Part shown: positions 21,656-22,468 of the stretch, one piece after another
Layout of the letters: the number at the start of each line of letters is the position of its first letter
Numbering within the stretch: the stretch's first letter is position 1
Assembly: GCA_027482225.1 (NCBI GenBank)
Contig: JAIXWD010000016.1
Location: 1 to 64,000, forward strand
Source of the DNA: Bacteroidota bacterium
Lineage (GTDB): Bacteria; Bacteroidota; Bacteroidia; UKL13-3
Length of the DNA stretch: 64,000 bases
Direction of reading: 5' to 3'
Made by a program: the position numbers and the translations under genes
The notes under the pieces: model-generated
What the model saw: only the letters and a program-made list of their open reading frames with translations
Databases searched by the model: none
Told to the model about the DNA's origin: nothing

Positions 21656-21794
21656 GCTTATAACGTTTCGCGGCCTGACGCAGGTGCCGGCTACGGAAGG
21701 TTAATTTGTCCTGCCAAGATAGAAAATAAATGCGAAGAAAAATGATGATGTTACTGAATTAGCGGCACTTGCCGTTCAGACCGCTGTTATATGC
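21656..21794 (-). repeat. attC-like imperfect palindrome (site B)
   Basis: Left arm 21656-21689 begins GCTTATAACGTTTCGCGG and ends CAGGTGCCG; right arm 21763-21794 begins CGGCACTTGCCG and ends CCGCTGTTATATGC. They pair over about 28 positions. The left arm has four extra unpaired bases (within GTTTC) next to the outer TAAC box, and the right arm has two single extra bases further in. The centre is 73 nt. Outer boxes are TTATAAC and GTTATAT. This is the architecture of integron attC sites (outer boxes, inner boxes, extrahelical bases, variable centre). Confidence 0.75.
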
Positions 21795-21796
21795 AT

Positions 21797-22318
21797 TTAT
21801 TCTTTCTGCCAACCTCTCACAATAGTCATTGTTAAAGAGTCTTGTTGCTTTTGATTTAAGCTTGTGGTCGCTTTACACACAAAATGTTTTTTATTATTCA
21901 ACCAAATGTATATACCTACTTCATTGCTGTCAACAGAAGCAATGGTCGTTTCAATTGTACTATCGGGTTTACAAGTTATGATTTCTAAGGAGTCAATTGT
22001 TCTTCTTTTTTGTAGTATATCTCTATGAATTAAGCCGTCAATTGGACCAGAATAAGGATTTGGGTCGTACTTCACCATTGTCCAGTTAAAAGTAGCAAGT
22101 AAAAGTCCAACTATCCAAATTGTAACTCTTGTCTTATTATTAATGACTCTCCTGCCAAATGCTTTCAGTGTCAGGAAGAGAAAAAGTATTCCCAGTGTCC
22201 AAAGAGTAAATACAACAATTAAAGTGAATATGTCAGAGACTAGCACTAGGAAGTCTTGTCCTTCAGCTTTTGAAATTGAAGGAACTAATAAAAAAATTGT
22301 TATTAATATTCTGTTCAA
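21797..22318 (-). CDS. Unknown membrane protein, single-gene cassette candidate
   Basis: 173 aa. No family recognised. A signal-like helix at 1-18 (ending SKAEG) is followed by two hydrophobic segments (about 24-50 and 66-82) and a C-terminal polar domain of about 85 residues. The start is a TTG at 22318; no in-frame ATG exists before residue 80, and the frame stays open upstream into site C, so the start is uncertain. The gene fills the whole interval between palindromes B and C; its unit is bounded by the exact inverted 10-mers GTTATATGCA (21786-21795) and TGCATATAAC (22333-22342). Confidence 0.6.
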   Translation of the reverse strand: MNRILITIFLLVPSISKAEGQDFLVLVSDIFTLIVVFTLWTLGILFLFLTLKAFGRRVINNKTRVTIWIVGLLLATFNWTMVKYDPNPYSGPIDGLIHRDILQKRRTIDSLEIITCKPDSTIETTIASVDSNEVGIYIWLNNKKHFVCKATTSLNQKQQDSLTMTIVRGWQKE

Positions 22319-22333
22319 CGGTCTTTTATAATT

Positions 22334-22468
22334 GCATATAACGTTCCCGGGCTTGGCGAAGGTGGCGATTTTTATGAATAATTTTCATGCGGAGTACAAA
22401 TTTCCTTTAACCACAAATCTGTCTGCGTAGCAATAAACCGCCACTTTTGCTAAGCCCGTGTTAGCGGT
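22334..22468 (-). repeat. attC-like imperfect palindrome (site C)
   Basis: Left arm 22334-22367 reads GCATATAACGTTCCCGGGCT then TGGCGAAGGTGGCG; right arm 22439-22468 reads CGCCACTTTTGCTAAGCCC then GTGTTAGCGGT. The inner parts pair (GGGCTT with AAGCCC, GTGGCG with CGCCAC), and the left arm has four extra bases beside TAAC, at the same place as in site B. The centre is 71 nt. The outer boxes differ from each other (GCATATAAC, GTTAGCGGT), as if they came from two different neighbouring units. Confidence 0.78.

Follow-up and report, generated by a model that had tools for sequence, protein, structure and literature searches.

Integrons are a main known bacterial machine for capturing single genes. 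Their attC sites are 57-142 nt long and conserved only at AAC/GTT, with a self-pairing of 9-11 nt in most cassettes, and they also possess a UCS, two or three extrahelical bases (EHBs) and a VTS (PMC2727003). A domain near patch III is specific to the integrase IntI (PMC9668308). The I2 domain reads the EHBs, and the joint origin of I2 and EHBs has been put as a chicken-egg paradox (PMC4792948). Integrons are reported as almost absent from Bacteroidetes, where only In0 was known in 2016 and one complete integron, that of Salinibacter, in 2022 (IntegronFinder 2, PMC9024848). Models of attC have been made for 11 taxa, and Bacteroidetes is not among them (PMC8352920). In the open-access literature, no description of arrays of the kind dealt with here was found for Bacteroidia; subscription papers and preprints were mostly outside the scope of that search and priority is unsettled.

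The window, that is the whole stretch of 64,000 nucleotides analysed here (contig JAIXWD010000016.1 of the Bacteroidota assembly GCA_027482225.1), contains a short array of hairpin sites and genes. Our data indicate that one unit of this array, built around the gene at 21797-22318, is a cassette belonging to an integron-like system of Bacteroidia whose tyrosine recombinase, BacInt, is encoded elsewhere in the genome; we give this reading a probability of about 0.88. The preliminary description had claimed an exact 10-nt inverted repeat around this gene. It is present, as GTTATATGCA (21786-21795) and TGCATATAAC (22333-22342) are exact inverses, and it extends further, since 14 of 15 nt match between the two ends of the unit (21786-21800 against 22328-22342), the sole mismatch being at position 11. 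The bare 10-nt repeat was dropped as evidence because the AT-rich window holds 59 exact 10-nt inverted pairs spaced 400-700 bp apart, which is the chance level; anchored on GTTA...TAAC, the repeat is one among 646 pairs. The further claim that the outer boxes of the two flanking sites, B and C, do not match internally also holds, the agreement being about 10/15 for site B and about 6/15 for site C with the constant GTTA counted in. The repeat of cassette 1 is well beyond chance because the same 15-nt rule is general and was met in 46 + 35 units of other arrays and genomes.

The length of 557 bp given earlier for the unit was wrong. Site B sits 3' of the minus-strand gene and travels with it, a rule taken from a duplicated cassette of UKL13-3 (see below), and the mobile unit is thus 678 bp with site B included. 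The site-to-site period at cassette 1 is likewise 678. The gene itself gave no protein family above cut-off, and no relatives were found in 64 family genomes or 395 class genomes. The check for relatives with the same ends was thus moved to gene a of the neighbouring cassette 2. A relative with other ends, which would have spoken against the unit, was not met, and the DNA homology of the homolog in genome G209 begins exactly at the GTTAGCGGT box.

A search of the same genome (2.72 Mb, 24 contigs) with site C led to contig C18. The match there lies 3 kb from the best match to an integron-integrase model, which is itself under the cut-off. This locus (L010) has tandem sites of about 136 nt each, and a tyrosine recombinase of 370 aa adjoins its first unit. 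The boxes at the start and end of its units are complementary, namely GTTAGCGG/CCGCTAAC, GTTATAGCCA/TGGCTATAAC, GTTATGCGG/CCGCATAAC and GTTAGCAC/GTGCTAAC, and the rule held in every unit there. A covariance model (R1) made from six sites of the window genome found eight strong sites in that genome and matches in 53 of 58 related genomes. Complementarity between the start and end boxes of a unit was then observed in two sets adding up to 81 units, 46 of them neighbouring site pairs and 35 independent; the latter came from loci found by the recombinase alone, and longer ends were compared in them. In this second set the complementarity spans exactly 15 nt and falls to background level at position 16. 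Positions 5-9 match in 97, 91, 89, 94 and 86% of cases, against 24-52% within single sites and 28-45% with shuffled partners. Position 11 is almost never matched and has G facing T, a fixed mispair. It follows from the 15-nt rule that the two boxes of one site come from different units and the boxes of one unit from one molecule, and the earlier proposal that a unit's boxes belong to one circular cassette, each site being a hybrid of two neighbours, is supported by these statistics. Some neighbour pairs among the 46 showed no match, probably because an intervening site was missed or has decayed.

The features of the window and of the loci compared with it are collected in Table 1. The ends of cassette 2 (22460-22474 against 23645-23659) match at 12 of 15 positions, with mismatches at positions 10 and 11. 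Site B has spacers of 5 nt (GTTTC) and 1 nt (T) and an inner stem of 20 pairs interrupted by a 2-nt bulge. Beyond site B the array probably carries two more cargo genes, the acyltransferase-like gene and the Crp/Fnr-like regulator, and the cassette ends around the former are unresolved because site A is degenerate. The stretch 18964-19679 is 79% homologous to a cassette of another genome (G033; L036 838-1557), the homology stopping at the site boundary, and would probably represent a decayed distal cassette of the window array. No integrase gene or relic was found by tblastn beside the attI-like end of the window; the window array is short and lacks its own integrase gene, and it is inferred that BacInt on C18 could act in trans. 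Rfam found just one tRNA across the window, and PADLOC gave no defence family for the cassette genes apart from one weak, unconvincing match.

Table 1. Coordinates of the proposed features (positions in the window unless a contig or locus is given)
Feature	Position	Strand	Support or remark
Site A, degenerate hairpin, distal array end	19678..19832	+	R1 31 bits, R2 26.5 bits
Acyltransferase-like gene, between sites A and B (translated from 20959)	19862..20971	-	
Crp/Fnr-like regulator, between sites A and B	21030..21599	-	PF00027 5.7e-11
Site B, attC-like hairpin, strand opposite to cassette genes	21656..21794	+	R1 115 bits, R2 91 bits, fold
Cassette 1 (678 bp): 5' box, one gene, 3' box, site B excluding TAAC 21661-21664	21665..22342	-	
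Cassette 1 15-nt end box GTTATATGCATTTAT, adjoins gene 3' end	21786..21800	+	
Cassette 1 gene, 173 aa, membrane-type protein, function unknown, TTG start as listed	21797..22318	-	
Cassette 1 15-nt end box ATAATTGCATATAAC, adjoins gene 5' end	22328..22342	+	
Site C, attC-like hairpin, part of cassette 2	22334..22468	+	R1 122.7, R2 109.9 bits, fold z -2.95
Cassette 2 (1317 bp): box, two genes, box, site C	22343..23659	-	end match, sister-genome break, G209 homolog
Cassette 2 gene a, 186 aa, function unknown	22477..23037	-	homologs in 3 other class genomes
Cassette 2 gene b, 179 aa, function unknown	23081..23620	-	
attI-like insertion point and flank, ...GGCGAACCTTTAATGGGTTTTAGTTTCGCAGATATGTAA/GTTA	23656..23760	-	G004 break, attI consensus likeness
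BacInt tyrosine recombinase, window genome	C18:150175-151284; L010 15172-16284		single close homolog in genome
IS110-family copies, UKL13-3	L054 16200-17198; L055 12235-13486; L059 11337-12588		

The length of the sites is nearly fixed. In a set of 129 sites it is 136 in 77 and 134-139 in nearly all, the left spacer has 5 nt in 121 and the right spacer is a single T in 127. The inner stem has 20 pairs, and over the whole structure 94% of the cells are paired. Covariation reaches 0.613 in these sites; shuffling the partners lowers it to 0.165, and sliding the structure to 0.082 or less. The site boundaries are AAC/GTT (A3 pairs 7-9 are A-T in 116, A-T in 128 and C-G in 127 of the 129). In-line mismatches are frequent near the spacer, at pairs 4 and 5. 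An extra base in the inner stem is absent from both arms in 114/129 sites, a left-arm insertion occurring in 6/129. On the other hand 128 of the 129 sites have a G·T at pair 14 of this stem, amid neighbouring pairs that vary freely. Together with the G/T mispair at position 11 it gives each half-site one wobble on the same strand, and on the complementary strand of the sites both wobbles become A·C. The wobble-bearing strand is the one opposite to the genes, which corresponds to the bottom strand of integrons; in 57 of 72 sites it forms the more stable fold. It should be noted here that six sites of the window genome seeded the model with which the sites were collected, and that this may enrich seed-like features.

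It could be possible that the same cassette system works with double-stranded sites, the stems being symmetrical half-sites in the duplex and folding not being required. BacInt has no insertion for reading extrahelical bases, the enzyme is XerA-like (see below), and there is one G-T mark per half-site, all of which would suit a duplex. However, an invariant G-T amid covarying neighbours is a feature of a folded strand, as duplex arms need no constant mispair; the higher stability of the hairpins of one strand and the mismatch between the outer boxes within an arrayed site also speak against it. Double-stranded recognition is thus unlikely, and recognition of a folded single strand remains the preferred reading.

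The catalytic residues of BacInt (R204, K229, H294, R297, H320 and Y329 in L105 numbering) are invariant in 39 homologs. In 95 BacInt-like proteins 64-65 aa separate KGxKxR from HxLRH, two landmarks on either side of the IntI insertion; in the canonical IntI of the phylum the figure is 106 aa (28 of 28), and in XerC/D it is 71-72. The IntI insertion (I2, about 41 residues) is absent from BacInt-like recombinases. XerA (NF040815, PDB 5hxy) is the best match of the catalytic part in sequence and fold, with 233 bits (cut-off 220) and a Z of 23.6. VchIntIA (IntI4, PDB 2a3v) is a recognisable homolog (119.8 bits, Z 20.1), the end IYTHV...SPxDxL being common to both, and between two aligned blocks there are 30 aa in BacInt as against 72 in IntI4. 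In the tree IntI is monophyletic (100/100), as is the separate XerCD group (100/100), and the main BacInt clade (98/97) falls outside IntI and separate from XerC/D. An array-bearing, insertion-less group (L215/L216) branches with IntI (94/90), apart from the main BacInt clade, and therefore the assignment of arrays to a recombinase is not always certain; a single clade of all insertion-less proteins was not rejected in an AU test (p 0.41). The two proteins of that group, L215 (G034:C75) and L216 (G022:C17), are more distant (40-44% identity), and hairpin arrays lie directly downstream of both. Among the matches listed, phage records held only partial recombinase relatives of about 40%. Plasmid records (H5-H20) of Klebsiella, Aeromonas and Acinetobacter hold recombinases that are about 50-54% identical over the catalytic part, one of them annotated as TnpF.

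The N-terminal domain of BacInt (residues about 1-60) has invariant tryptophans and the motif GARWSxTxKxWH in L010 and its homologs. HARP-like or DUF5710-like signals in it are weak, with one member matching PF07443 at 6.7e-4 and the best Foldseek match (4o66) having an E of 0.79. The HARP of SMARCAL1 is a DNA substrate-recognition domain. By analogy, and as a lead only, the N-terminal domain of BacInt might recognise folded or forked DNA and bind the hairpin.

The placement of the sites relative to the recombinase was followed by scanning 84,980 species genomes with the recombinase, which gave 71 loci. R1 found sites in 38 of them, all downstream and in a single orientation; weak mirror matches on the opposite strand of real sites were left out of the counts. 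With at least 1.5 kb of downstream DNA available, 33 of 41 loci have sites. No site was found in the other 8, two of which (L166, L167) are distant homologs, and R1 detected no sites in about 580 kb upstream of the recombinases. The attI box was located solely as the GTTA box best complementing the 3' box of the first cassette. The first cassette begins about 95 nt beyond the stop codon of the recombinase (88-107 nt in most loci). The motif before the first box, which was not used in finding it, is TATAA...A/GTTA (the slash marks the junction), often after an inverted repeat; in 34 loci the counts are T-9 32, A-8 33, T-7 32, A-6 34 and A-1 33. Judged from its sequence, this junction is attI-like. 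Of the 47 units with an ORF, 41 have their gene directed away from the junction and toward the site of that unit. The combination of array, integrase and attI-like site lends further weight to the cassette reading.

The same facts bear on Xer-dependent modules of the pdif kind, in which units flanked by inverted Xer sites are moved by the housekeeping XerC/XerD on double-stranded DNA. In favour of such modules, BacInt scores best with XerA models and inverted boxes flank the units. The dif sites are about 28 bp long. The sites found here are not dif sites but long hairpins with a strongly covarying 20-bp stem, the arrays adjoin BacInt, which is distinct from XerC/D on the tree, and the attI-like junction stands at a fixed distance from BacInt. 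Movement by XerC/XerD is therefore very improbable, and we hold to a cassette system with its own recombinase.

Evidence of mobility came from exact breakpoints. In UKL13-3 (G028, 52 sites) a cassette, Y, exists in two copies that are 99.4% identical and diverge exactly at TAAC on either side, one copy being at attI (...CTATAAGCTA/GTTATAAGT) and the other within an array. What the copies share extends from the TAAC in the site 3' of the gene as far as the TAAC on the gene's 5' side, and therefore the gene moves with its 3' site. Another cassette forms a tandem duplicate that repeats every 1063 bp. When the window genome is compared with UKL13-3, a site and part of a cassette are homologous, and this homology starts exactly at TAAC. 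The sister genome G004 is 94.6% identical to the window across 8.8 kb, ending at 23656 at a TAAC/GTTA boundary; beyond this point G004 carries another cassette, with GTTATAGCC... in place of GTTAGCGGT..., and the distal end of the array is shared. This difference confirms the boundary and is the pattern that would be expected of an insertion at attI. For the G209 homolog of cassette 2 gene a, which has 71% aa identity, the homology in DNA starts at 22459-22460, at the box, and there is a candidate other end, ATCGCTAAC. This solitary homolog (L242; G209:C23, about 1250-2300) has no detected hairpin site adjoining it and lies between two similar flanking stretches, and it is possibly a cassette inserted outside an array. 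A fully empty, cassette-free locus was not found in the genus, as contigs stop or bear other cassettes.

An alternative is that the palindromes are merely dispersed elements (REP- or terminator-like, or the ends of miniature transposons) which flank genes by chance or as terminators without any mobility. GC-rich palindromes do lie between the genes, and the many bare 10-nt repeats of the AT-rich window would be in keeping with it. This is hardly credible, however, as the complementarity joins the ends of different sites and not of one, duplicated cassettes and the sister genome break at TAAC, and the sites are placed on one side and in one orientation next to a recombinase. The exact breakpoints in duplicated and shared cassettes support a mobile cassette instead.

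Insertion elements were also met in these arrays. Element X of UKL13-3 (1.25 kb, three copies) was considered as a cassette and rejected, as it is an IS110-family element inserted in sites. Such an element (DEDD_Tnp_IS110 + Transposase_20) occurs at the TAAC end of three different UKL13-3 hairpin sites, and the IS1111-attC elements of integrons are comparable insertions. The plasmid array of Chryseobacterium sp. SNU WT5 (L217 14299-18081) holds two kinds of element that are known from integrons, with an IS110 transposase and with the reverse transcriptase of a group II intron.

The R2 model, in a survey restricted to genomes at least 90% complete, found sites in 217 of 296 Bacteroidia genomes (73%) and 128 of 165 genera. 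Carriers include cultured Flavobacterium, Pedobacter, Cyclobacterium, Litoribacter and Kaistella, and a Chryseobacterium plasmid has the integrase and five sites. A contig of a Candidatus Kuenenia stuttgartiensis MAG is 93.5% identical over 8.7 kb to a Chryseobacterium gleum MAG contig (L145/L151); these MAGs are likely misbinned or misnamed. Of 392 genomes of the phylum, 107 have a canonical IntI above the cut-off. Nearly all of them belong to other classes, and among the matches listed G122 is the sole genome of the window's class.

This distribution bears on whether the window simply has an ordinary integron whose canonical IntI is divergent or lost and whose sites are standard attC sites (CALIN). 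Much of the anatomy agrees with that, including the AAC/GTT ends, the folded palindrome with its asymmetric central spacer, the position of the site 3' of the gene and the attI-like site. Even a true attC, which lies next to an IntI from the same phylum and has a 6/2 spacer, aligns to the site model in the same orientation, albeit weakly. Yet IntI is nearly absent from the class in which most genomes have sites, the genome itself has no match above the IntI cut-off (TIGR02249), and the catalytic spacing of the 95 BacInt-like proteins differs from that of every canonical IntI compared. Moreover most sites lack an inserted stem base, and the site model gave only weak matches at 30 IntI loci. An ordinary integron is thus improbable. 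In the earlier reading of the locus as an integron, the cassette logic stood and the textbook form did not, for BacInt is without the insertion specific to IntI, and extrahelical bases are missing from most sites.

In the mechanism that we propose for the integron-like system, BacInt most likely recognises a hairpin formed by one strand of the site of about 136 nt, the strand opposite to the cassette genes (bottom strand); folding of this strand in the cell and the choice of strand are inferred. The hairpin would consist of an outer stem of 15 bp that is complete only in the excised circle, a spacer of 5/1 nt, an inner stem of 20 bp and a loop of about 70 nt. A cassette would be made up of the 5' box, the gene, the 3' box and the hairpin site, and the end boxes of a cassette are complementary because in the circle, an intermediate that is itself inferred, they would pair with each other as a single outer stem. 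By catalysis that is likewise inferred, BacInt would recombine site with site for excision, and site with the attI-like site about 95 nt past its own stop for insertion. Strand exchange would take place at or adjoining GTTA, the position of cleavage being an inference as well. The action of G-T pairs in place of extrahelical bases is also inferred.

If I2 and EHBs coevolved, they would be expected to be missing together, as is the case here. A tentative possibility, which we would not put at even odds, is that a surviving integron without I2 and EHBs is the intermediate required by the paradox of Escudero et al. 2016, with two G-T pairs (one per half-site) encoding the strand choice instead of flipped-out bases, and that it is the dominant type of integron in a class that ranks among the largest in bacteria. 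It is open whether BacInt preserves an early state, has lost I2 or has arisen in parallel. The system could show how integrons arose, and it makes their origin testable through an I2-less recombinase acting on an EHB-less hairpin and through the G-T pair as the setter of the strand. Current integron finders probably overlook the system because its integrase lacks the IntI insertion and the anatomy of its sites is different. A cassette pool of unknown size is thus opened.

As far as can be judged without direct evidence of recombination, which is inferred, the system would work like an integron, in a variant that is undescribed in searchable papers. It shares with integrons the tandem cassettes in one direction, the position of each site 3' of its gene, the hybrid make-up of sites from neighbouring cassettes, and AAC/GTT ends. 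It also shares the folded form with R stem, asymmetric unpaired spacer, L stem and variable loop, the attI beside the integrase with newcomers next to it, the occurrence on plasmids, and IS110-family insertions in sites. It was not filed as a canonical integron because it fails in I2 and EHBs, while layout, end rule, folded sites and attI are as they should be. BacInt lacks the I2 of about 41 aa and has a different small N-terminal domain, and unlike in integrons the integrase is transcribed toward the array. The sites have a near-fixed length of 136 nt and are mostly without an extrahelical base, with an invariant G-T instead. The outer stem is of 15 nt with a fixed mispair, as compared to 9-11 nt in most integron cassettes (PMC2727003). 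The hosts belong to the class Bacteroidia, from which integrons are reported to be almost absent (PMC9024848). BacInt differs from XerA in adjoining cassette arrays and an attI-like site, in its extra N-terminal domain, in its IntI-like C-terminal SPxDxL end and in forming its own clade. In the integration of CTX-type phages by XerCD, as is inferred here, a Xer-type enzyme acts on a folded single-strand hairpin without extrahelical bases (PMC4792948). However, those phages have no integrase of their own, no cassettes and no attI array, whereas the Bacteroidia system has all three, and it differs from pdif (Xer-dif) modules in its hairpin sites of 136 nt and in having its own recombinase beside the array.
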